Of a stretch of DNA of 40,218 nt, positions 10,782-37,927 are shown piece by piece (the stretch's first letter is position 1; every line of letters begins with the position of its first letter). The notes under the pieces are model-generated. The model made no database searches. It was given only the letters and a program-made list of their open reading frames with translations, and had not been told where the DNA came from. Made by a program: the position numbers and the translations under genes. Where the stretch lies: positions 1 to 40,218 of IMG/VR virus record IMGVR_UViG_3300013131_000006. One strand, written 5' to 3'. The DNA comes from a virus.

Positions 10782-11186
10782 TCATAATTCATTTATAGTT
10801 TTGTCATATTCATCCCAATCAACTCCAAGCTCTCTCGCGACAATCTTCTCAATTTTTGTGGCGAATATGTGTTCTTTACGGTACGGAGCTCTTTTGTCAT
10901 TTCCTGGCTCTTCGTATGTCCACTTACCATCAATCCTCTCTTTCTCAAACGTTAGGTCAAAATTCGTTATATCTTTCTCTTTTATTCCTCTTTTAAGCGT
11001 TAAATACCATTCGACAAGCTCGTGAATAAATATCAAAAACTCGTAGTCTCTTATTGTCCTTGATATAAAGAACTTTTGAGCCTTTCCGTATCCTGGAAGG
11101 TTTTCGTATAGATAGTCTCCGCACGTTTCATATCTTTGGTTTTTGTGTGTAATCGAATTGCAGAATATACTCGGTAGGTGTTTCAT
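10782..11186 (-). CDS. Unknown protein after TrpRS, 134 aa
   Basis: Its ATG overlaps the TrpRS stop (ATATGA), so the two genes are translationally coupled. It reads HLPSIFCNSITHKNQRYETCGDY near the start. It then shows a helix with FIHELVEWYLTLKRGI, where HELVE looks like part of a zincin-type or other helical metal site but lacks a clear HExxH. The C-terminus is charged (VDWDEYDKTINEL). Function unknown; coupling hints at a link to the synthetase. Confidence 0.75.
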   Translation of the reverse strand: MKHLPSIFCNSITHKNQRYETCGDYLYENLPGYGKAQKFFISRTIRDYEFLIFIHELVEWYLTLKRGIKEKDITNFDLTFEKERIDGKWTYEEPGNDKRAPYRKEHIFATKIEKIVARELGVDWDEYDKTINEL

Positions 11187-11878
11187 ATCATTGTTATAGC
11201 CTCAATAATCATCTCCTTTGTCTCCTTCATATTTCTTTCGTCGAAGTCCACTCCAAATCCAATCGCGATATTCCGTAGGTTCTCTATTCCTTCTGGAGTG
11301 GTAGTAGCCTTCATGATTTTCTTCCTGTTTTCGTCGTCGTCAAAGAGGTACAGACAGTGCTCGTCACCAGCGGATTTACTCATCTTTCTCGTAGGGTCCT
11401 TTATTGACATGATTCTCGGTGTCTCCGTGAGAATCGTTTCAGCTACCTTGCTGATTCCAAGACGCTTACAGGTCCTCCGATAGAACTCCATGTGCTGCAA
11501 CTGGTCTTCTCCAACGATTACTGCGTCTGCTTCTGATAGGATTATATCTGCGGCCATGAGGCACGGATAGGTGAACAGTCCCACGTTCCCCTCACCTTTG
11601 TCCTTGAACTGCGTCATCCGCTTCAGGTCGGACATCGGTGTCTTGCATTGGATTTCCCAGGCTTTAATGATAGAGCTATCCCACTGTATAACCGGTTTCC
11701 CACCGAGTTTTTCTATCGTTTCTACCATTTCTGAATACGAAATCCATTTGCCACTAGTCATTGAGTGCCAACACGCTATCAAAATATCCGCCTCTTTCTC
11801 GATCGCATACCGAAGCCCTCCGAGGTAATTCCCGATATGGATTCGACCGGTCGGTTGGATTCCGTATAGGAGTTTCAT
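11183..11878 (-). CDS. trpS: Compact tryptophanyl-tRNA synthetase
   Basis: 231 residues against about 330 for bacterial TrpRS. Class I motif HIGN (residues 14-17), RMTQFKDK (87-94), YPCLMAADI (104-112, with the Asp that holds the indole nitrogen in TrpRS), GEDQ (123-126) and KMSKS (165-169) are all present, so the catalytic core looks intact. After KMSKS only about 60 residues remain, against about 135 in E. coli, so most of the helical anticodon-binding domain is missing. It charges tRNA-Trp with tryptophan, if active. Neighbours: two tRNA-Tyr genes elsewhere in the genome and a coupled unknown gene. Identification is firm; tRNA choice is open. Confidence 0.93.
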   Translation of the reverse strand: MKLLYGIQPTGRIHIGNYLGGLRYAIEKEADILIACWHSMTSGKWISYSEMVETIEKLGGKPVIQWDSSIIKAWEIQCKTPMSDLKRMTQFKDKGEGNVGLFTYPCLMAADIILSEADAVIVGEDQLQHMEFYRRTCKRLGISKVAETILTETPRIMSIKDPTRKMSKSAGDEHCLYLFDDDENRKKIMKATTTPEGIENLRNIAIGFGVDFDERNMKETKEMIIEAITMI

Positions 11879-12311: not shown

Positions 12312-12322
12312 CTAAAGAACTG

Positions 12323-12403
12323 TGGAAGCGGTAGGAATCGAACCTACCCGGCTATTGCGCCTGATTTACAGTCAGGCCCGCGTCCATAACGGTCTACGCT
12401 TCC
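12323..12403 (-). tRNA. tRNA-Tyr (GUA)
   Basis: On the minus strand the acceptor stem GGAAGCG/CGCTTCC, anticodon arm CCTGA-CTGTAAA-TCAGG (anticodon GUA), a long variable arm and T arm GTAGG-TTCGATT-CCTAC are all intact. CCA is not encoded. The D arm pairs poorly (only a shifted CCG/CGG), so function is likely but not certain. Confidence 0.85.
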
Positions 12404-15822: not shown

Positions 15823-16347
15823 TCACTTTTTACTCGTAATAGGCATTATCAATCCGAGCGCGTTCTGTCCGTTTCCTCCTCCTCGGAATACTATCGGGAT
15901 ATTTTCGTATGGATGAATTTCCATATCTACCTCTCCTCTTCCCATTTTTTCCATAACCTGCATCAACTGCCTGAGATATTTTGCGTTCAACTTTATTGTC
16001 TTAATCGCGTATTTGCTTCTCGGTATCACTCGCTGCACGTTAGGATATTCTCCGGATATTTTCTGTATAGGAAACCAAAAGTCTTTGTCTCTTATCTCTA
16101 TTTTTCCATCTTGTTCTACAACAATTTTCTCTTGCGTTTCTTTATCAAAAGTTACTCCTTTAAGTCTTTTTGGATTCGCGATAAAGGGATCGAAAGTTTC
16201 CTTCTCACCTACCGTATCAACAATAATAGCCTTGAAAGAATCCGTGGCGATCGTGTGTTCCGGCGTAAAGTACACGCCTGTAAGTTCTTTTCGACCATCA
16301 TTTTTTGCCGATAATTTCACGATTTCGATATTGTGCTTGTTTATCAT
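15823..16347 (-). CDS. Beta sliding clamp-like protein
   Basis: 174 residues from ATG 16347, about half the length of bacterial DnaN. The segments HTIATDSFKAIIVD, GEYPNVQRVIPR, LNAKYLRQLMQVM and ALGLIMPI follow the order seen in the last domains of beta clamps, including the P-x-x-x-x-VIP loop. It may assemble as a short processivity clamp for the host polymerase or compete with the host clamp. It lies in the early replication block with SSB. Assignment rests on motif order. Confidence 0.65.
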   Translation of the reverse strand: MINKHNIEIVKLSAKNDGRKELTGVYFTPEHTIATDSFKAIIVDTVGEKETFDPFIANPKRLKGVTFDKETQEKIVVEQDGKIEIRDKDFWFPIQKISGEYPNVQRVIPRSKYAIKTIKLNAKYLRQLMQVMEKMGRGEVDMEIHPYENIPIVFRGGGNGQNALGLIMPITSKK

Positions 16348-16352
16348 AGTTT

Positions 16353-16628
16353 TCACTTAATCCCAAGAAACCGTTCGATTGCATCCGCGTCTGATCTGTC
16401 TGGCCCGAGATCGAGTCCCATGCTTCGTCCGTAGGTTTCAACTTTTCCATCAATAATTCTGAAGAATCATGCGCTCATATGATTTACTGTTCCAAGCCTG
16501 TTTATATCCGCAAGCATGTTATGGCTCGGAAAGTCATAATCTCCACCACCGATTGCGATTGTCCCGATGTCATCACCGACGTGCCATCTCACGTAGCGAA
16601 TTTTCATACTTACGTAGCGAATTGTCAT
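16353..16628 (-). CDS. Small gene interrupted by one in-frame UGA
   Basis: The frame runs from ATG 16607 (or 16628) to TGA 16353, with a single in-frame TGA at 16467-16469, codon 47 from 16607. Before it: MKIRYVRWHVGDDIG...; after it: FFRIIDGKVETYGRSMGLD..., ending in IERFLGIK. Both halves look like real protein and the second has no start of its own. Either UGA is read through (Trp fits), or a point mutation from TGG has broken the gene. A 21-bp duplication repeats the start region in frame (M-T/K-IRYV). Function unknown. Confidence 0.6.
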
Positions 16629-21116: not shown

Positions 21117-23042
21117 TTAAACATTATTTATCCTTTTCTCTGCTATTTCGTAGTATTCGCTTGATAGTTCGATTCCTATGAAATTACGATCCAATTTTTT
21201 GCAGGCTACCCCAGTCGTTCCACTTCCCATGAAAGGATCTAAGACTGTATCGCCTTCCTTGCTTACTAATCGGATAAGCCAAGACATGACAGATATAGGT
21301 TTGACACAGGGATGATGGTTAGATCTTGGCTTTCCTAATGGATTTTCTCTACCTTCTGCTGGTTTACTTCTCGCACTTGCTGGTGGTTCTCCTAAAGGCA
21401 ACCCCTCGCACCCCTCATTCCTCTCTCTCTTACTTGCCTTTGGGAATTGGAGTAGCCCGTGCTTTTCGCCCCATACATCCTGATTAAATGTGTCAACCTT
21501 ACCGCCCCATTGCTCAGCCATTGCGTCTGCTATGCCCTGAAACGTTTTACTTCTTTCTCCACCTTTACCCCATTTTTCAGCGTACCATTTTGGCATTCTT
21601 TTTCCACTCGCATAGGTTATAAATTCTCCTTTGTCTACGATTTTTGTATGAACAAGACTTGGCAACCCCTTTAACCATAAACAAGTTTTTTTAGAAAAAC
21701 TATCGCCGAATTGATATGGTTGTATTGTCTGGTCTGGCTTTCTTATTTTTGTGCTTATAACTCCAACGGGGTTTTCTAATGCAATTTTCGGAATTGGAGC
21801 ATCAAGTAATTTTTGGACAAAATCTAATGCCCTTTGCTGTCTACCATCTTTTATCTTTTCCTTAAACCAAGCCGCACCACTTACTGCTAAATCTGTGCAG
21901 GGTGGATGTGCAATCATTAAATCCCAACCTTTATCTAACTGCTCTAAAACATCACCTTGTATATGCCATTCTGGGTGTCCACCACTGCAAGGTAAAATAT
22001 CGCAAGAATACGCCTCGTGCCCCAACTTTCTAAATGCTTTACAAACTGCTTGGCTTTCCTCACAAGCAATCAACACTTTCATTCTCTTACTAGCTTTAGG
22101 GAACTGCAACATCCCTTGCTTCTCCCCCCAGACATCTATATCAAAGTATCTAGATTTTGAGCCTGAGTCGGCTTTCCATATTGAATTATCTGTTCCACCG
22201 AAACCTGTTCCTAAAAAAGTTTCTGCATTTTTTGTCGCCTTATTACCTGCTCCACTCTTCGTCATCACCCCATCATTCAAAGCATCATCGGTGCAGATAA
22301 TGTTGGCGGGGAAGCGGCCTTGTTGTGTGATAACTTCTTCTTTTGCCATTGACTTACTTGAACATTTGAAAGTTCCACCTGCTATATTCCCTGTGTTGCT
22401 TTTTAAGGTATTATTCCAATCGTCTTGTCCTTTGAAAGGTATCCTGCACCCATCAATATCAATCGCACCTGTTCCGTATTTCAATACATTCTCTACAATA
22501 GTCTTTTCTGATAAAGGTTTACGAGCCATTATGATTGGTTCGTGGGCTGGTTTAAGAGCTGTCCCAAAGCCGTTGTATTCATTTTGAGCTTTATATGCTC
22601 CGATAGTATTTGAACCTGCTGGTAAATCTCCGCCAGTATCTTTGTCTTTTTGCCCTGATTGTCCAGCTGTTACAAACGCCTTGCCACGATTTTTAGTTAT
22701 TCCATTTATCTTGTCTATATCAAGCCCTATATTCCTACTTTTTGGAAATCCACTTGCATAAATCCATTCCAACATATCCCTTACTTCAAACCCTGCGTCT
22801 TCAATCGCTACTGCCATTCTGTGATAGGTTCTAGTTCCACCAAATGCTAATAAGTGCCCACCAGGCTTCAATACTCTCAAACACTCTTTCCAAAGTTCTA
22901 CATTATAAGCGATACCTGTGCTATCCCACTTCTTACCCATGAAACCGAGTTCGTATGGCGGGTCACTCACAATCGCTTCTACGCTTTCATTTTCCAATTT
23001 CCCCATCTCCTCCAAGCAGTCTCCGTGTATGAGTTTAATCAT
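21117..23042 (-). CDS. Nested DNA methyltransferase: beta-class enzyme with inserted C5-type domain
   Basis: 641 residues in one frame. Residues 1-320 carry the N-terminal half of an N4/N6 beta-class enzyme (DPPY at 27-30). Residues 321-514 are a complete C5-methyltransferase-like protein that begins with its own Met (MKVLIACEES), has HPPC (379-382) and ENP (423-425), and ends SKTFQGIADAMAEQWG. Residues 515-641 return to the beta-class enzyme, with the SAM motif DPFMGSGTTG at 602-611. The junctions are marked by DVWGEK(Q/H)G(M/L)LQFPKASKR at 303-320 and again at 522-539, 16 of 18 residues identical. Such enzymes methylate phage DNA against restriction; this one may do two kinds of methylation. 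It is preceded by the replisome organiser with a 4-base overlap. Confidence 0.9.
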   Translation of the reverse strand: MIKLIHGDCLEEMGKLENESVEAIVSDPPYELGFMGKKWDSTGIAYNVELWKECLRVLKPGGHLLAFGGTRTYHRMAVAIEDAGFEVRDMLEWIYASGFPKSRNIGLDIDKINGITKNRGKAFVTAGQSGQKDKDTGGDLPAGSNTIGAYKAQNEYNGFGTALKPAHEPIIMARKPLSEKTIVENVLKYGTGAIDIDGCRIPFKGQDDWNNTLKSNTGNIAGGTFKCSSKSMAKEEVITQQGRFPANIICTDDALNDGVMTKSGAGNKATKNAETFLGTGFGGTDNSIWKADSGSKSRYFDIDVWGEKQGMLQFPKASKRMKVLIACEESQAVCKAFRKLGHEAYSCDILPCSGGHPEWHIQGDVLEQLDKGWDLMIAHPPCTDLAVSGAAWFKEKIKDGRQQRALDFVQKLLDAPIPKIALENPVGVISTKIRKPDQTIQPYQFGDSFSKKTCLWLKGLPSLVHTKIVDKGEFITYASGKRMPKWYAEKWGKGGERSKTFQGIADAMAEQWGGKVDTFNQDVWGEKHGLLQFPKASKRERNEGCEGLPLGEPPASARSKPAEGRENPLGKPRSNHHPCVKPISVMSWLIRLVSKEGDTVLDPFMGSGTTGVACKKLDRNFIGIELSSEYYEIAEKRINNV

Positions 23043-25350: not shown

Positions 25351-25539
25351 GAGCCTCGTGTAGGTACTGCCCCCACTTCTGAAGTTTACAAAACTTCCAC
25401 ATCACTTACTATGCTTACGAGGCGGGGCCGTGGGATGAACCCACAAGCCTTATTCTGAGTACCCTGGTCTCCACCGTCATGTGCGTTTGCAACCACCATG
25501 ATACACGGGTTCGCATCGTTGAGAGGCGTGTGTGGTATG
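25351..25539 (-). other. Gap between early block and tRNA-Tyr
   Basis: About 190 bases without a credible gene. It holds a perfect GAAGTTT-TGT-AAACTTC hairpin and GC-rich inverted segments (GTGGGTTCATCCCAC). I tried to fit a further tRNA and could not. Confidence 0.5.
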
Positions 25540-25619
25540 TTGGCCGTGTAGGAATCGAACCTACTTACCCGAAGGCCGCAGATTTACAGTCTGCTGTCCA
25601 CCCATTGAACATACGACCA
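25540..25619 (-). tRNA. tRNA-Tyr (GUA)
   Basis: Minus strand: acceptor TGGTCGT/ACGGCCA with one G-U pair, D stem GTTC/GGAC, anticodon arm GCAGA-CTGTAAA-TCTGC (GUA), long variable arm with a TTCG loop, T arm GTAGG-TTCGATT-CCTAC. All arms pair well. CCA is not encoded. It lies 8 bases after the holin-like gene. Confidence 0.93.
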
Positions 25620-27978: not shown

Positions 27979-28185
27979 TTACGAAATAACCTTTTCTGCC
28001 ATGTCTATGAGCGCCTTGAAAATTCCAGTGTCAACCTTGCTTTTTTCGATTTCTTTTATAATCGACTCCGTGTTCTTTCCGGATTGCTTTTTAAGAATAT
28101 CCAAATCAAGCTCCTTCAATTCTTCAGGAGTAGCTATCTTCGCGAGAAGTTCCCTTAGTTTTCTTTTCTGTTCCTCGGTTATCAT
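27979..28185 (-). CDS. Small helical protein, 68 aa
   Basis: All helix, charged (EEQKRKLRELLAKIATPEEL). The start overlaps the ATP-grasp stop (GATGA). No family recognised. Perhaps a small virion or lysis helper. Confidence 0.6.
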   Translation of the reverse strand: MITEEQKRKLRELLAKIATPEELKELDLDILKKQSGKNTESIIKEIEKSKVDTGIFKALIDMAEKVIS

Positions 28186-29624
28186 CGCTTTAGGATTTCT
28201 TTTATTTGCTTCTTGATCGTCGTAAGCGCGTCTTCATCCTTTTCCTCGTCAAGATATCCCCATTCGATAAGGTCGTTTCTGCTTGAGTGATAATTCGATT
28301 TCTTGAAGTCATTCCTCCAAAATCCGCTCGGTACTACTATCTTTTTCAGAAGATCCTCTGTCCTTTCGGCTGCTTCGTCTACGGTCTTCCCCATTCCAGT
28401 AACCGTTACGACGTATCCTTCATGATTTGCTACCCGAAGCATTCCGTTTTCATTATACACCCCATCGAAGTGGATATTCAAATAATCTTCACGAGACAGC
28501 TTCTGTTTGAACATGACAGGAACACCGTATGAATCGGAAAGCCTCTTGCTCATCATTTTGAAAATCTCATCATCACTGCTAATTTTCTCATTTTTATCTT
28601 CATTCTCTTCCTTCTCTGCAACGGCAGGAAACGGCTTCGTATACAGCCAAGACACTATACAATATCCATGATTGTACTTATAGTTTTCTTGCTGTTCTCC
28701 ATCAGCTATTGCCTTGAAGAACTCTCCCCACGGAGATTCCTGTATAGCTATTTGCGCGGAAGTAGCAGGGACTCCCATCCGCGGAGTGAACTCGAGAAAA
28801 TAGCAACCATCGTCGTTGATAATACAGTTCACGTCTATGTCTCCCCTAAAATCAATCTTTTCAAGCGCCGGACGAAGTTTGTCTAGCGTCTCGGAGAAAA
28901 TCTTTGAATTTTTAGCCTTCACATAGTGCATCACTGTGAACATTTCTCCAGTGCTCTCACCCATATTTCCTGCCATGAGTGGCTTGTGTTCCCAGTTTTC
29001 CTCGCATATCTCGTCACCATCAGCGTCCTTCTGGAACTCGAACCCGTTCCAATATGAGCCGCATGCGAACTCGTGGCCTTCGACCTTTTCTTGTAGTACG
29101 AACTCTTGTTTGAGTCCTTTCGGCCATATTTCAATAAGTTTGTCAGTCTTCGCGATAACGTCCTCGGAATTTTCCATTTTTGCCACTGAATTGAGTCCTT
29201 TTATGATGTCGAGGTGTCCCATCTGCTTGAGAACCCACTTCCCTCCTTCTTTCTCGATGATTTCCTTCGCCTCTTTGAGGTCTTTTACAGGTCTTACTTT
29301 CGGTACCATCAATCCACACGCTTCAGCTATTTTATTCGCTTTCACGCGATCAAGTTCTATCTCGTCTGTCTTTTTACCGCCTCCAATAACAGAAATTCCT
29401 TCCGAACGCAACAATGCTGGCTCTCCGTCCATCTTGTCGTCGTATACGACGAGGTCGCATGTTCTCGCATAGTCAAGACGCTTCTCGAACGGTATCCGCT
29501 TGAGAGTTCCTTTGAGAACGTCGTTTTCTTCTCTTTGCGCTATCGCTATGTCGTTTCCCTCATTCTTCATGCGAAGAGCAAGGTCAGGAGCGAGAAAGTC
29601 GTTTGTTACGTAGAGAATCTTCAT
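28182..29624 (-). CDS. PurD-like ATP-grasp ligase
   Basis: 480 residues from ATG 29624 (ATATG), which follows the upstream stop by 1 base; the open frame reaches 29783 but overlaps that gene. Starts MKILYVTNDFLAPDLALRMK, then an ATP-grasp fold with KWVLKQMG, FVLQEKVEGHEFACGSYW, GDIDVNCIINDDGCYFLEFT (ATP/metal Glu and Asp) and VTVTGMGKTVDEAAERTEDL. The order and length match GAR synthetase (PurD). The neighbours are virion and lysis genes, so it may ligate an amino acid onto something other than phosphoribosylamine. Substrate unknown. Confidence 0.75.
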   Translation of the reverse strand: MKILYVTNDFLAPDLALRMKNEGNDIAIAQREENDVLKGTLKRIPFEKRLDYARTCDLVVYDDKMDGEPALLRSEGISVIGGGKKTDEIELDRVKANKIAEACGLMVPKVRPVKDLKEAKEIIEKEGGKWVLKQMGHLDIIKGLNSVAKMENSEDVIAKTDKLIEIWPKGLKQEFVLQEKVEGHEFACGSYWNGFEFQKDADGDEICEENWEHKPLMAGNMGESTGEMFTVMHYVKAKNSKIFSETLDKLRPALEKIDFRGDIDVNCIINDDGCYFLEFTPRMGVPATSAQIAIQESPWGEFFKAIADGEQQENYKYNHGYCIVSWLYTKPFPAVAEKEENEDKNEKISSDDEIFKMMSKRLSDSYGVPVMFKQKLSREDYLNIHFDGVYNENGMLRVANHEGYVVTVTGMGKTVDEAAERTEDLLKKIVVPSGFWRNDFKKSNYHSSRNDLIEWGYLDEEKDEDALTTIKKQIKEILKR

Positions 29625-29625
29625 A

Positions 29626-32475
29626 TTATTTGGTCTTTCCTGGTGCTTTTGCTTTGTGAGCCTGGTTCCAGATGTCGGTGAGTTGTTGTTTGGTATAAAA
29701 GTTTGGTTTTTCGGTATTCCACAAAACGCTAAATGTTCCCTTCCCAGACATTTTTGGATATACCATTCCATCATAATTTCCACTCTTTCTTATGTTATCT
29801 GCTAATGTTTGTCCAAATACTAGTCCTCCATCTTTTTCTGCTATTTTACTTCCAACAACACTAGACCATAAATCTTTTCCATCAGCAGCGTTTGAACCAT
29901 ATTTTTGTATATCTCTTTCAGAAACTCCATATTTTTTAAGCAAATTTTTTGCGTCTTTTATTGATGCTCCATCTAATTCTTTATTCAAATCAAACATTTT
30001 TGCTCCATTTTTATCAACAGCCATGGTCTCTCCTTTAACCAGAGATGAATAAAAATCAGCATCTCCTTTGCTTGCTGTGTATAATCCTTTCCCATAAGTA
30101 AACGACCCTTCTCCACTTCCTATTTTGGAAGAATCGAATTTGCTAAACGACTTTTTTGCGCCATGGTAATCTTGAAAACTATTCAAAAACTCCTCTGCAC
30201 TCTTATATTTCCGAGCCTCACTGAGTAAGGATTGGTCTGTGGATACTTGGTTGGCTTTATTCCAGATGTCGGTGAGTTGGGATTTGGTAGGGGATACAGA
30301 CTTTGGATTTATAACTACAAGCTCTTTCTCTCCTCCACCGATGTAAACGGCATCAACTTTTTGTTTCCTTAAGAATCCTATGTAGTCCTCCAAATCCACA
30401 GCGTCTTCAATACCATCGATAGAAACAACTCTTGCATTCGGCTTTAACTTAGCCTCAACGATTTTCCCGTCTTTTGTAAGCGTCGAGAAGATTCCTGCCT
30501 CCTTTGGTGTTTCTGCAAATGAAATCGTGCTCTGCATTTTCCCGTATCCGCCACCTCTGTAAGCGCTTTTCGGTAGTTTGCTTCCTGGAATAAACCCAGA
30601 AGACATAATGCTATCGGCGCTACCAGAGCTTGTTCCGTGGTAAAAAGTATCAGATTTTAATGCTACGTCTTTTATTCTACCAGATAACTGTTGTTCAATC
30701 GTTTTTGGAGTCTCTGATATGATATTTACTCCCGCCAGGTCCTCATAAGAAGTTCCTCTCCAATTATTTTTCTTACCAGATAGAATGTCATTTATAGAAT
30801 CCTCATTTAGTATTTGCTTCAAGTATTCAAGATCATTTTTGTCTTGGATGTTTACAGTTGTTTTGTATTTCTTGGCTTCCTCTAATAGTCCTCCATATCC
30901 CTTTTCACCTTTCGAAACGTCTTGAATAGATAGACCGCCTTTTCCTTCCATGTATTTACCGACTCCTCCTCTTATTTTCTCCTTTGTCGGAGCAATAGCG
31001 CCAGGGATTCCACCGATTACGCTTCCTGTTTTTTCGAGAGCTGTACCAGTCGCTTTTGCTGCGACACTAAGAGCTTCTGATATCATGTTTCCTTCACCTG
31101 ATGCAAGCGCATCTGCTATTCTTGACTTTACAGAAGCAGAAAGCGTATTCCATCCGGTAGACTCTGTAAGTTTTACTAGATTTTTCATTATAATACCACC
31201 TTCGACAGCACCTAGCGGTCCTCCATGCGCGAATCCGGCAGCGGTTCCAGCGGCTTGCGCCATCTTCTGTCCGAGAGGAGCAGCCTGTCCTGTCTTTCGT
31301 TCTATCGTAGCAGACAAAACTCCATGCATTCGCTTCCAGAAAGTGAACTCGTTGTTTATTGCAGCTATATCAGGATTAGCTTTTGCCAGCTCGTTACGGA
31401 TAGAATTTGCTACCGTCTTACGAGCAGAGAGGATATCAGAATCCTTCAGTCCGAGTCCGAATCCCTTTCCTGCTTTGTTAATCATCTCGTCAAGTGTCTG
31501 TCTGTACTCACGAAGAAGCCTCGTAGGTGCGTTTTCATCACCGACTATGCTCATAAGCTCGTCACGGAGCTGTCCTAGCTTTCCGTATCTTACGGCGTTT
31601 CCTTCAGGAACGATAAATTTTCCGTCAGCTCCTTTTATCGTAAGTTTGTCCATCGCTCCTGCTATCGATTCTAGTATCGGCTTGACTGATGTCTGATGTT
31701 CTTCTGGCAGTGCCGACCACGCTGCCTCAAGTTGCTGCGATGCTCCAGAAAGCCCTTCCTCCGCCTTAGAAAGAAGTCCTTTTAGTGAAAACGCCTTTAT
31801 TCCACGATTTGCAATTTCCGGCACTATCTTTGCCGTTGTTTGCTTCATTTCCTTTGTTGTCGGAGCAAGAACCTTAGCGTATTGCCTTTCTGCCGCGCTA
31901 CGGAGAGCAGCCGAACCAGCACCAGCCTCCTTCATAAATCCTCCAGCGCTCGTTATAGCCTTTCCGATTATAGGTGCTGCCACTTCTGCTACTTTCCCAG
32001 TAACAGCGCCAATTCCTGCTCCAGTGGCTATACCTCCGATTCCAGCGTTCTCTTCCATAGCGGAACCAGCTCCGAATGCCGCTGCTGATGCTACCGGACC
32101 TCCGAAAATAAGAGAACCGGTCTTTAACGTCGCACCTGCCAATTCTTCAGCCGTTGGTGCCTTAATGTACTTTTTAGCATCTTGACTCACCATGCTCGGA
32201 GCAATAGCACTTCCGAATATGTCTGCCGTCTTTCCAAATCCTGTCTTATCAGCAATCCAGTTAGCCGCCTTTCCTACTATGCCAAAATCACGCTCAGCGG
32301 CAGAAGGACCGCTAACAGATGTACTCGACTGTATAGTAGAATCATTGTAGTCGCTAATCTGGCCCTTGTATTGAGGGTACTTCTGAACCATCTTCTGTAC
32401 TAGTGTCGCGTCGTCGAGACTCTGGTACTGAGGATATTTTTGTTTTACAGACTGAGCGAACTCTTGTGATGTCAT
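29626..32475 (-). CDS. Large internal virion protein with two ADP-ribosyltransferase-like modules
   Basis: 949 residues. The N-terminus has two YPQY motifs (QKYPQYQSLDDATL, QKYPQYKGQI). A Gly/Ala-rich hydrophobic stretch (about residues 105-175) could cross membranes during ejection, followed by helical middle parts. From about residue 530 come two modules, each opening with LL(E/S)EA(K/R)KYK and closing with QLTDIWN(K/Q)A. Module 1 has FYHGTSS near residue 611; module 2 has DYHGAKKSF near 770 and GKGLYT. The YHG-x motifs are typical of the NAD-binding site of ADP-ribosyltransferases. It may be injected to modify host proteins, as T4 Alt is (inference). Confidence 0.75.
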   Translation of the reverse strand: MTSQEFAQSVKQKYPQYQSLDDATLVQKMVQKYPQYKGQISDYNDSTIQSSTSVSGPSAAERDFGIVGKAANWIADKTGFGKTADIFGSAIAPSMVSQDAKKYIKAPTAEELAGATLKTGSLIFGGPVASAAAFGAGSAMEENAGIGGIATGAGIGAVTGKVAEVAAPIIGKAITSAGGFMKEAGAGSAALRSAAERQYAKVLAPTTKEMKQTTAKIVPEIANRGIKAFSLKGLLSKAEEGLSGASQQLEAAWSALPEEHQTSVKPILESIAGAMDKLTIKGADGKFIVPEGNAVRYGKLGQLRDELMSIVGDENAPTRLLREYRQTLDEMINKAGKGFGLGLKDSDILSARKTVANSIRNELAKANPDIAAINNEFTFWKRMHGVLSATIERKTGQAAPLGQKMAQAAGTAAGFAHGGPLGAVEGGIIMKNLVKLTESTGWNTLSASVKSRIADALASGEGNMISEALSVAAKATGTALEKTGSVIGGIPGAIAPTKEKIRGGVGKYMEGKGGLSIQDVSKGEKGYGGLLEEAKKYKTTVNIQDKNDLEYLKQILNEDSINDILSGKKNNWRGTSYEDLAGVNIISETPKTIEQQLSGRIKDVALKSDTFYHGTSSGSADSIMSSGFIPGSKLPKSAYRGGGYGKMQSTISFAETPKEAGIFSTLTKDGKIVEAKLKPNARVVSIDGIEDAVDLEDYIGFLRKQKVDAVYIGGGEKELVVINPKSVSPTKSQLTDIWNKANQVSTDQSLLSEARKYKSAEEFLNSFQDYHGAKKSFSKFDSSKIGSGEGSFTYGKGLYTASKGDADFYSSLVKGETMAVDKNGAKMFDLNKELDGASIKDAKNLLKKYGVSERDIQKYGSNAADGKDLWSSVVGSKIAEKDGGLVFGQTLADNIRKSGNYDGMVYPKMSGKGTFSVLWNTEKPNFYTKQQLTDIWNQAHKAKAPGKTK

Positions 32476-34169
32476 AGTATTCCGAGAGGGTCATTTTCCG
32501 GACCAGAAGAAACAGCTCCTATACCGCTCTGAACAGGAACAACCGGTGACGTGTTTCCTAGAGCGTTGATTCGATAGTTAATGAGACGCTGAACCTCGGT
32601 AAGGGAAGATTGCAACTGGTTGACTCCGTAGTTTGCGTTGATTTGCGAGTTTGCCAATCCCCATGCCGCCTCCGTAGGCGCATATCCTCCCTGAGCAAGG
32701 TTTGCAAACTCTTCCTTGAGCGTGTTGACAGCTGCAAGATATTGAGCAGCGAGTTGACCTGCCGGAGTATTTCCTTGAGTCTGTGATATGACTTCAAGCT
32801 TTGCCTTGTTGTAAAATTGAAGTCCGCTTTGCGCCATCTGCTGCGCAAGTTGAGAAACCTCATTTATTGTACTTACTACTGAACCGGCTAGACCCTGATA
32901 CCGTATCATCTGCGAAGAGTTCATTCCTGTAACCCACTTTTTCGCTGCTGAAAATTTCAGTTCAGCGTTCTGAGGATTATAATTCGGGTCAAGCTTTATA
33001 GCGTCAGCTATTGCTCTATTTCTCGCGCCTCCATACGCAGAAATCATGCTCGGAGCGACTGAGCCGTCAACAAGACTCTGTGCCATTATCTGGCTATCAC
33101 TTTTTACTGTCGTTCCGGTCTTTCTCCTCGCAATCTCATATGCCATCGCCTGAAGTCCTTCAAGCGGGCTATTGTATTTCACGTAGAATCCACCTTCACT
33201 TCCTGGTCTCGGACTTCCCTTTCTGTCCTCTCCCATGTTCGGATTCCATGTAACGCCACCGTAGTTATTATTGACAGAAGCGACGTTTGATGTTCCAAAG
33301 TTAGACTCAAGTTTCATCATTGCCGCAAGCATTTTGATATCTATACCGTACTGGGAAGCCACCTGGTTCATCATGTCTCCGGTTATCGGAGAGTTCGGCG
33401 CTACTCTTGCGATGTAGTCTCCTACGTTATCAGGCATCGTCGAGTATATTGACTGGACGGTAGCTGAATAGTTAGGATTTACTGGGTTGTATGACGCTAT
33501 GTTGTATCCGTTTATTGAGCCTCCTCCTATTCCAAGAGATTCAAGGTATCCTGGCATGCTTTGATTTATCGCGTCTATCGCTCCTGGGTTACTGGAGATT
33601 GTTTTCATGATATCCTGCCTCGCGGTTTCCTGCTGACTCCATACGTCAGAAACCTGCTTGACGGCCTGGTCTATCGTGTTCCTTCTCCCGCTTACCTCAT
33701 CGTTTATAGCTCGTATTTCACTGGCTACGCGATCAATGTTGTTCGAGTCTATCGCGTGCCTAAGAGCAGGAGTGAGAGCTTTTTTCTCCTCGTCTGAAAG
33801 AGGAGTATCGAACATGTGCTTCAGAAGCGTGTTCTTCGTCTTGTTCATCGAAGCATCCTTGTTCAACTGGTCCTGCATTTGTGCGATTACCCTCGTGAAC
33901 GCATACGGGTCTGATTTCGCGGCAGAAGAAGGCATAACGTCAGGAACCGGAAAAGAAGAATTTGCCGTCGTATTTCCGTACTGGTTATTTCCAGTATCAA
34001 TTGATTTCTGATTGCTTATTCCAAACGGGTCTGCAACATCGGCTCCTGGTATGGTGCTGTGCTGATATGGGTCAGTTTGCGGCTGAAGTTGTCCCGCCTG
34101 ATCCTGAAGACCACTTCCTATCTGCGTGAAAATGTTATTCTTCAGGCGGTCCTGTATCCATTCAAACAT
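32472..34169 (-). CDS. Virion-associated murein hydrolase protein
   Basis: 565 residues. The middle domain (about residues 255-350: SPITGDMMNQVASQYGIDIK, MMKLESNFGTSNVAS, YNSPLEGLQAMAYEIARR) is a glucosaminidase/lysozyme-like fold with Glu in KLESNFG as the catalytic residue. The N-terminal part is polar and Gln-rich, the C-terminal part helical. It overlaps the next gene by 4 bases. It probably opens a small hole in the wall during DNA entry, as other internal core proteins do. Confidence 0.8.
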   Translation of the reverse strand: MFEWIQDRLKNNIFTQIGSGLQDQAGQLQPQTDPYQHSTIPGADVADPFGISNQKSIDTGNNQYGNTTANSSFPVPDVMPSSAAKSDPYAFTRVIAQMQDQLNKDASMNKTKNTLLKHMFDTPLSDEEKKALTPALRHAIDSNNIDRVASEIRAINDEVSGRRNTIDQAVKQVSDVWSQQETARQDIMKTISSNPGAIDAINQSMPGYLESLGIGGGSINGYNIASYNPVNPNYSATVQSIYSTMPDNVGDYIARVAPNSPITGDMMNQVASQYGIDIKMLAAMMKLESNFGTSNVASVNNNYGGVTWNPNMGEDRKGSPRPGSEGGFYVKYNSPLEGLQAMAYEIARRKTGTTVKSDSQIMAQSLVDGSVAPSMISAYGGARNRAIADAIKLDPNYNPQNAELKFSAAKKWVTGMNSSQMIRYQGLAGSVVSTINEVSQLAQQMAQSGLQFYNKAKLEVISQTQGNTPAGQLAAQYLAAVNTLKEEFANLAQGGYAPTEAAWGLANSQINANYGVNQLQSSLTEVQRLINYRINALGNTSPVVPVQSGIGAVSSGPENDPLGIL

Positions 34170-36469: not shown

Positions 36470-37927
36470 TCAGTCAGGTATATATCCCTGGTCCTCGTAT
36501 TCCGGGAACTCCAAACCCTGAAATTCCGGAGGTTGAGATGAATCAGTCACCCCAGACCACTTAAACTTGAAATATCTTCCGTCAAGGTTCGCCGTTTCTA
36601 TAATCGTCACGGAGCTTGTCAGGTCTCCATCGATATCTGAATAATCTCCTCCTTCAGTCTTTACCTGAATCTTCGAATTTTGCCCATTCTTAGTATACGC
36701 CGCTATGTGACCAGACATTTTGTCTGTCGTCCCCCTGCTTCCAAATTCCAATTCCTGCGTTTCAAGCGAGTAGAAAATCGGTGTTCCGCGATCAGTAGAA
36801 CCGAAATTGAGCGTATCGACGTATCCAGCCGAATCGGCTATCCGTATACGCCTTCCATTAGAATCAGTATATTTTGCGAATAATACTGGATTGAACGGAT
36901 AATAATGCACGCTCCAGTTCTGGTCTCTCGTCGAGAATTTCAGGACATAGTAGTTCGTCAATCCGTTCATCGTAATTTGTCCGAGAGACACGTATACGTT
37001 GAACTCGTCGGAACCCATAGAGACGTTCGACCAGTTAGCCTGCGGAACATTGTCGATGAAGTCTTGCACCCCGAGCCTCGAAATCTGTGTAGGATATCCA
37101 CCATTTGTCGAATATATAGCGTTTCCACTGTAAAAATATACCATCCCCTGACATTTTGTGATTGCTTCCTGGCTTACGGCCCCGACGTTATACAACGCCT
37201 CCGGATCAGTAGATTTAGTCACTGTCGAGAGTCTATACAGGTTATTCCTCTTGAATACCAATACGACATTCGAAACATCGGAAAATCCGGTTACATTATC
37301 TCCGTCGTCAGGGTTTACGTCTATCCAATCTCCGGCAGTCGGACTCGTACTCCATGTGAGTGTAGGGCTTGCCGATAGGTCTATGAGCGAAGAAAAGTAT
37401 ATCCTGTCCTTGTTCGCCGAATATCCTGCCGCGAGAAGCCTTCCTGCAAAGCGATATAATAGGCTAGGAACGACCGAATCAGTGGTAATACAGTTAGTTG
37501 TACTCCAAGTGTTTCCATCGCTGCTAGAGAGCATTGTAGCGCCGTTTACGACAAATGAGCGTCCTCCAAGAGACGCGAAACGGCATTTTGCGCTGTTTGA
37601 AAGGCTGGTAAGACCAGAAGTATGCCATGAACCGTCATAATAGTAAAGACTTGCCGTGCTTGCTCCCGTAAAAACAGACAGCATGTAGTTCGGCGTACCA
37701 GAAAGTCCTACAAATTCAGTTAATCCGAGAGGCGTCTTCCCGCTTGCGACAACAGAACCAATGGCAGTAACCCCTTTTCTTACCTTTCCGCTTCCTATCG
37801 TGTCGTCAAAATTGACATTATACGAGTTTGATACCGAATTTGAAGGAATTAAATGAACATTTGCGGAATAATCGGTTATCCGCCCTTTAGAAAAGTCCCT
37901 ATATGTCGGTATCGTTCTTTTTGCCAT
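36470..37927 (-). CDS. Beta-propeller tail protein
   Basis: 485 residues. Begins TIPTYRDFSKGRITDYSANV..., then repeats of blade-like phrases (FAGRLLAAGYSANKDRIYFS, FKRNNLYRLST, GMVYFYSGNAIYSTNGG, HYYPFNPVLFAKY). This is the layout of the large propeller tail proteins (P22-like tail stabilisation/hub) in short-tailed phages. The C-terminal part (FKWSGVTDSSQPPEFQG) is a beta sandwich. The role as a tail hub is inferred. Confidence 0.75.
   Translation of the reverse strand: MAKRTIPTYRDFSKGRITDYSANVHLIPSNSVSNSYNVNFDDTIGSGKVRKGVTAIGSVVASGKTPLGLTEFVGLSGTPNYMLSVFTGASTASLYYYDGSWHTSGLTSLSNSAKCRFASLGGRSFVVNGATMLSSSDGNTWSTTNCITTDSVVPSLLYRFAGRLLAAGYSANKDRIYFSSLIDLSASPTLTWSTSPTAGDWIDVNPDDGDNVTGFSDVSNVVLVFKRNNLYRLSTVTKSTDPEALYNVGAVSQEAITKCQGMVYFYSGNAIYSTNGGYPTQISRLGVQDFIDNVPQANWSNVSMGSDEFNVYVSLGQITMNGLTNYYVLKFSTRDQNWSVHYYPFNPVLFAKYTDSNGRRIRIADSAGYVDTLNFGSTDRGTPIFYSLETQELEFGSRGTTDKMSGHIAAYTKNGQNSKIQVKTEGGDYSDIDGDLTSSVTIIETANLDGRYFKFKWSGVTDSSQPPEFQGLEFPEYEDQGYIPD

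Follow-up and report, generated by a model that had tools for sequence, protein, structure and literature searches.

Paired tags bracket two ADP-ribosyltransferase-like domains in a late phage protein and very probably mark exchangeable cassettes in uncultured phages

Results

Two tagged modules at the end of a 949-residue protein

The window analysed here is the complete virus record IMGVR_UViG_3300013131_000006 of IMG/VR, 40,218 bases long with a G+C content of 43.9% and a direct terminal repeat of 123 bases. One of its late genes encodes a protein of 949 amino acids (aa) that ends in two modules, A and B, each built of a START tag (LLxEAxKYKSAEEF), a domain and an END tag (TKSQLTDIWNKA). 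As shown in Table 1, the translation agrees with the first-pass annotation, made from the letters of the window, which had described two modules bounded by common start and end tags; the protein terminates 10 aa past the END of module B. The 20 identical end-tag bases it had reported, CAACTCACCGACATCTGGAA, occur exactly twice in the genome, both times within an END, and belong to a wider 44-nt repeat with 80% identity between the modules.

The tags as first described are confirmed, with two corrections. The START of module A is partly degenerate and reads KKYKTTVNIQ where KKYKSAEEFVKAQ is expected. The END also reaches further than first described, the DNA core conserved across phages being ACCAAATCCCAACTCACCGACATC, which the DNA of END A fits. 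The domains between the tags differ strongly, as had been claimed: a single-sequence phmmer comparison of the two inserts gave no significant similarity (E 1.7-1.8). Insert B has a G+C content of 34.5% and ranks 11th from the bottom when the genome is cut into 663 windows.

Table 1. Positions of the tagged modules and of neighbouring late genes in the window
Feature	Position	Strand	Basis or remark
949-aa late protein, both cassettes at C-terminus	29626..32475	(-)	ORF (open reading frame) list and translation
N-terminal part of the 949-aa protein: repeated KYPQY motif, then glycine/alanine-rich stretches	30889..32475	(-)	Translation
START tag of module A, LLEEAKKYK	aa 530-538, 30862..30888	(-)	SAEEFV part degenerate
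Insert A	30289..30861	(-)	ART (ADP-ribosyltransferase)-fold domain from FYHGT (30645) to VVINP
END tag of module A, TKSQLTDIWNKA	30253..30288	(-)	SQLTDIWNKA = aa 732-741, 30253-30282; 20-nt core 30260-30279
START tag of module B, LLSEARKYKSAEEF	aa 750-763, 30187..30228	(-)	DNA AAATATAAGAGTGCAGAGGAGTTT fits the cross-phage core
Insert B, ART-PolyVal-like	29695..30186	(-)	Pfam PF18760 and structure matches
END tag of module B, TKQQLTDIWNQA	29659..29694	(-)	QQLTDIWNQA = aa 930-939, 29659-29688; 20-nt core 29666-29685
Glucosaminidase-domain late gene, neighbour	32472..34169	(-)	Pfam PF01832, E 2.8e-9
Virion structural protein of the same gene run, lying upstream	36470..37927	(-)	phrog_3287, E 2.2e-9

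Fold of the two domains

Both modules had been called ART-like, and this is well supported for module A and moderately for module B. The AlphaFold2 model of module A (predicted local distance difference test score, pLDDT, 77) matched ART enzymes, toxins and toxin-antitoxin ARTs in structure comparisons (Foldseek, VIA-align), with a best Z of 9.4 over 131 aligned residues (root-mean-square deviation, rmsd, 3.6). All of the top 50 aligned entries were ART enzymes or toxins except for a region of a phage ejection protein; the match to a region of the pre-ejectosome protein of cyanophage A4 had Z 7.7 and 25% identity. There was no Pfam ART-PolyVal hit for module A, and the nearest relative of its insert was that of L019 (85 bits; L-numbers are contig labels). 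When placed by sequence, the candidate active-site residues would be the His of FYHGT, the Asp of VDAVYI and, in the last strand, the Glu of EKELVV, with a Phe in the strand-2 place. We are confident, on the basis of the model, that module A has an ART fold.

Module B, whose model has a pLDDT of 72, is probably an ART as well. Its best structural matches were structure 6kyf, which we take to be AcrIF11, an ART (Z 5.5, 127 aligned, rmsd 4.6), and MbcT (Z 5.3); a Foldseek search with module B alone gave no match below E 0.001. It matched Pfam ART-PolyVal (PF18760) at E 4.5e-5 and 24.7 bits, under the curated cut-off of 31.2, and a profile of its relatives matched a solved ART toxin at E 5e-4. 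The ART-PolyVal active site is H-Y-D, with the residues in strands 1, 2 and 5 (PMC5512222). The counterparts in module B, again by sequence placement, would be the His of DYHGA, the Tyr of GLYTA and the Asp of YDGMV, and these columns hold His in 23, Tyr in 15 and Asp in 20 of the 24 aligned sequences. Module B does not have the Glu that is present in about a third of its relatives. From fold and residues together, the predicted activity is therefore likely for module A and uncertain for module B.

The same bracket surrounds many different domains

IMG/VR (2.9 million viral contigs) was scanned independently for DNA encoding the END (QLTDIWN), for the START and for an END variant, END-Tyr. The END scan returned 82 stretches, nearly all in frame within long ORFs, and the START scan added further contigs among the matches listed. 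Hidden Markov models of the two tags showed a clear score gap and gave at least 165 STARTs, at least 148 ENDs and at least 126 START-to-END pairs in order. On contigs recruited by the START alone an END lay downstream in at least 56 cases, and all 9 new proteins recruited by END-Tyr had a START upstream. After many of the other STARTs there is either a divergent END helix, LTDFYNQA in form, or the end of the contig or ORF. Because nearly all END matches are in frame and a START lies upstream however the contig was recruited, START and END are a paired bracket, far beyond chance.

Paired inserts span 55-220 aa, and one bracket, in L054, is empty. Brackets in tandem occur in the window and in L019, L038, L041, L081, L090, L102, L116, L183 and L186. 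QLTDIWNKA in two solute-binding proteins (L091, L092) and QLTDIWNEF in three PD-(D/E)XK proteins (L016, L053, L059) were set aside as chance matches.

The metagenome search thus found LTDIWN-tagged domains of many kinds. The 121 distinct inserts fell into 39 phmmer clusters, 66 inserts being in one ART-type cluster in which single linkage may have merged subgroups. Pfam matches among the inserts were ART-PolyVal (33), DUF3990 (7), ParB_N (4), GNAT (3) and Pol-beta nucleotidyltransferase (1); many clusters have no Pfam name. ARTs make up about half or more of the inserts, and since the same tags also bracket ParB/Srx-like, GNAT and nucleotidyltransferase domains, they are not linkers around one fixed domain. 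By motif, the L132 insert looks like a metallopeptidase and that of L017 like a phosphoribosyltransferase. Of 101 inserts compared with the remainder of their ORFs, 89 had the lower G+C content, to which amino-acid composition may contribute.

The tag-bearing ORFs reach 3247 aa and carry other domains too, namely LPD22, LPD23, LPD38, pesticin lysozyme, GH108, RadC and GGDEF, a set of partners typical of polyvalent proteins; of the trafficking domains Rhs, CdiA and MuF, none was found at E <= 1e-4 in 46 tag proteins. Among genome contigs, real tags lie mostly on small contigs of metagenome-assembled genomes with mixed labels, and terminase family tests on the cassette phages indicated no uniform phage type. 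The tag peptides gave no convincing pair in INPHARED and PLSDB (50,697 phage and 72,556 plasmid records), the best being partial matches of about 54% identity with E about 2. As short queries limit sensitivity, absence of the tags from cultured phages is likely, not proven.

Two further observations were made on the tag proteins. A second END lineage, LTDFYNQATKG-like, follows STARTs that have no QLTDIWN form in L112, L121, L142, L160, L161, L182 and L184, and may be a separate exchange group. The N-termini of many tag proteins (e.g. L159, L031, L052, L143) start with two to five near-identical short repeats that differ from phage to phage, for example FDLKSAKPI/FDLKTAKPV in L159.

The tags are conserved as DNA

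Codon use in the tags was compared over 104 cassettes with mutually dissimilar inserts; the search patterns left the tested synonymous sites unconstrained. Codon identity was 0.65 in the START (0.49 expected) and 0.59 in the END (0.42 expected), both above the maximum of 500 randomisations. In the START, serine is AGT in 64 of 71 cases and phenylalanine TTT in 94 of 97; in the END, serine is TCC in 58 of 63 and glutamine CAA in 98 of 100. The conserved codons form blocks with sharp edges, from -2 to +9 around the Tyr of the START and from -4 to +4 around the Gln of the END. Each end has a sharply bounded DNA core of about 30 nt. As a control, observed/expected ratios were taken for conserved columns in further gene families encoded on these contigs, and were 0.80-1.19 where testable. 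The tags thus keep their synonymous DNA sites across phages in which the other genes are saturated.

One alternative is that the tags are kept for protein reasons only, the START and END helices acting as a clasp or as a docking, packaging or processing element, with the cassettes spread by illegitimate recombination in which tag DNA has no part. The outer tag residues (EA; WNKA) are conserved as protein with no codon excess, one bracket is empty, and the model of module B is at its most confident in the START and END (pLDDT 90-96, with 50-85 in the stretch that separates them). The START of module A, on the other hand, has low pLDDT, the inner synonymous sites are strongly conserved over dissimilar cassettes while other proteins of the same contigs show no such conservation, and the breakpoints described below fall in the DNA-conserved blocks. 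We consider a purely protein-level explanation rather unlikely. A protein-level role in addition to the DNA-level one is likely, because the outer tag parts are conserved only as protein and the tags are modelled with most confidence in module B.

The START core (GGAGGAGTTTGTG) could also be read as an internal ribosome-binding site with a start codon, so that each domain would be made alone as well and the DNA conservation would reflect translation. Its GGAGGAG-TTT-GTG stretch could initiate translation, GAG GAG TTT is nearly invariant and GTG is the preferred codon for the valine that follows (53 of 79). However, only around half of all STARTs have GTG as the next codon, conservation runs past it (GCA in 28 of 35), and the END is left unexplained, which makes internal initiation very unlikely as the cause.

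Near-identical phages differ between the tags

Cassette exchange could be followed in five pairs of contigs. L044, with a nucleotidyltransferase insert, and L070, with an ART, agree at 100% in 977 nt of upstream sequence and at 99% in 2702 nt of downstream sequence. For L126 and L158, identity is 98.75% as far as the inner edge of the START and 99-100% from the END on, with unrelated inserts. The same pattern of unrelated inserts between near-identical flanks was found for L031 (ParB-like) and L058 (ART). In these three swap pairs DNA identity breaks and resumes inside or beside the tags. In the fourth pair, L022 and L163, one common cassette (99.2%) is preceded by unrelated DNA, and identity starts inside the START. 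In the fifth, the L066 protein stops at the END, where that of L045, a relative with 94% identity, goes on to another START, a tandem gain or loss. Two flank-specific scans for further swap partners returned only known contigs or unrelated genes.

The first-pass annotation had proposed that domains are swapped at the conserved tags, and near-isogenic phages indeed differ exactly between them; as read from the assembled sequences, we take the five pairs as direct evidence of cassette exchange at the tags. It might be argued that these are ordinary multidomain proteins in which the tags go back to an ancestral linker and the apparent swaps come from chimeric assembly or coincidence, since all the contigs are metagenomic assemblies and the tags are short repeats. 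But the members of each swap pair come from different metagenomes, one junction was assembled twice (L031 and L055, 99.9%), the swaps keep the frame, and five independent events fall at tags. We give little credence to chimerism as an explanation.

Neighbourhood of the 949-residue gene

Followed across the circle in its direction of reading, the late run leads from a GP3_package packaging protein and terminase past the portal and the major head protein, reaches the far end of the record, and continues with the virion structural protein, the glucosaminidase protein and the 949-aa protein. Its gene order places the 949-aa gene where ejection proteins are expected. By its Pfam match, the glucosaminidase neighbour is likely to be a cell-wall-opening virion protein. 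Ejection of the 949-aa protein with the DNA is plausible from this late-operon position and company; the protein itself had no PHROG match.

The N-terminus of the 949-aa protein resembles those of L085, L118 and a protein of Maribacter phage Panino. A KYPQY-(about 18 aa)-KYPQY repeat (32350-32475, (-)) is common to the window, L118 (also a tag protein), L085 and the Panino protein, and L107 is listed as well. The repeat may serve in virion targeting, independently of the cassettes.

The next gene downstream of the one for the 949-aa protein encodes a PurD-like ATP-grasp protein (28182-29783, (-); TIGR00877, E 3.5e-22; GARS_A, E 1.7e-7), which is unusual cargo for a phage late region and whose true start is probably after 29626. 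Elsewhere in the window, a 231-aa protein (11183-11878, (-)) matches class I Trp/Tyr tRNA synthetases (TIGR00233, E 3.9e-35; PF00579, E 7.3e-32) and is shorter than the 328-position model; the genome also has two tRNA-Tyr(GTA) genes (12322-12403 and 25539-25619). A 177-aa protein (15823-16356, (-)) resembles the central part of the DNA polymerase III beta clamp (TIGR00663, E 2.1e-8). A 641-aa protein (21117-23042, (-)) has two stretches that match N6/N4 DNA methylases and may be a split or doubled methyltransferase.

Discussion

We think it highly probable that START, enzyme domain and END form an exchangeable cassette in large late polyvalent-type proteins of many uncultured tailed phages, with the tags serving as DNA handles and the effector being ejected. 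Near-identical phages carry different domains in one slot, so the tags look like trading handles. The tag peptides would be short helical boundary segments between which very different folded domains fit in frame, and the tag DNA would offer homologous handles of about 30 nt. During co-infection, recombination or strand annealing at these handles would replace, add or remove a cassette while keeping the frame and the rest of the protein. The 949-aa protein would most likely be packaged and ejected with the DNA, so that its enzyme domains, two ART domains in the window, could modify host molecules early in infection. Both the recombination pathway and the action on host targets are what we infer from the pattern as a whole.

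The sharply bounded cores at both ends would fit movement of the cassettes by a dedicated element, either a site-specific recombinase or a retroelement (integron-, shufflon- or diversity-generating-retroelement-like), with the tags as target sites. The START is also G-rich and the END C-rich, with some complementarity above a recoded null (mean z about -1). Pairing the START and END of one cassette gave no better complementarity than pairing those of different cassettes (-11.8 against -11.4 kcal/mol), and an inverted repeat or RNA stem joining START and END was rejected as weak and not cassette-specific. Among 36 cassette records, some of them fragments, reverse transcriptase was found in 0, serine recombinase in 0 and tyrosine integrase in 1, although the enzyme could be host-encoded; with these families absent or nearly so, diversity-generating retroelement, integrase and resolvase mechanisms were set aside, and a dedicated enzyme seems most improbable. 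Since 35 of the 36 records have no known site-specific recombinase, we favour homologous or annealing recombination as the simplest account. An ERF annealase is encoded in 6 of the 36.

Several points weigh against exchange at DNA handles. The codon conservation could partly reflect selection at the RNA or translation level. The upstream break of L044 and L070 lies a few codons before the START, where L070 has an extra stretch. The exchange evidence consists of metagenome assemblies, in which no recombination is directly observed and mis-joins at repeats are possible. The window has no near-identical relative, the exchange being seen in its relatives. Most of the 36 records have no ERF gene; other annealases were not searched for and many records are fragments.

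Polyvalent proteins are large proteins of phages in which ART, ParB, GNAT, Pol-beta nucleotidyltransferase, peptidase, lysozyme and LPD domains are combined; injection along with the DNA is predicted for them (Iyer et al. 2017, J Bacteriol, PMC5512222). The likeness lies in unrelated catalytic domains within one large phage polypeptide, as seen across the tag-bearing set; the window has two ART-like domains. Paired START and END tags with exchange there are not described in that paper, whose text has nothing on linkers, short or conserved motifs, swapping or shuffling. Recombinational variability is raised there as possible for one Verrucomicrobium locus only (PMC5512222).

Polymorphic toxins such as Rhs and CdiA, the latter with its VENN boundary, exchange their C-terminus on one side only and together with an immunity gene. 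They resemble the present system in that a toxin-like domain is exchanged at a conserved boundary, here in near-isogenic pairs, and differ in that the phage cassettes are internal or in tandem, bracketed and in frame on both sides, and part of a late protein. Replacement of C-terminal toxin domains by recombination with cassettes is described for these systems in PMC3482391. The MuF polymorphic toxins of temperate phages are virion proteins with varied toxin domains, defined by a MuF domain (BMC Biol 2017, PMC5576092); in contrast, no MuF domain was found in the 46 tag proteins searched, and all but one of the cassette records are without a tyrosine integrase.

In mosaic phage genomes and in the modular adhesins of T-even phages, short conserved sequences are recombination points between modules. 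Those sequences lie between genes or in receptor-binding adhesins, whereas the handles described here lie inside one gene and surround presumed injected effectors. A literature search for LTDIWN and KYKSAEEF found no paper, and we did not find two-sided, in-frame handles conserved as DNA described in the literature; there is a fair chance that the DNA handles make the system something new.

A wider proposal is that uncultured phages share a standardised format for injected-effector cassettes, with DNA handles selected for recombination itself. Phages otherwise unrelated would then take from one constantly traded stock of anti-host enzymes, and the format would be a phage counterpart of integron cassettes in which homology handles replace the integrase. 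We offer this tentatively and would lean slightly against it at present. The cassette format would explain how phages change their host-directed effectors without breaking a large virion protein. If the tags mark effector domains, they provide a search key for them, with 39 insert clusters found here, so that any unknown domain between a START and an END is a candidate anti-host enzyme. The handles would also allow selection for recombination, acting on DNA sequence within a coding region, to be tested.
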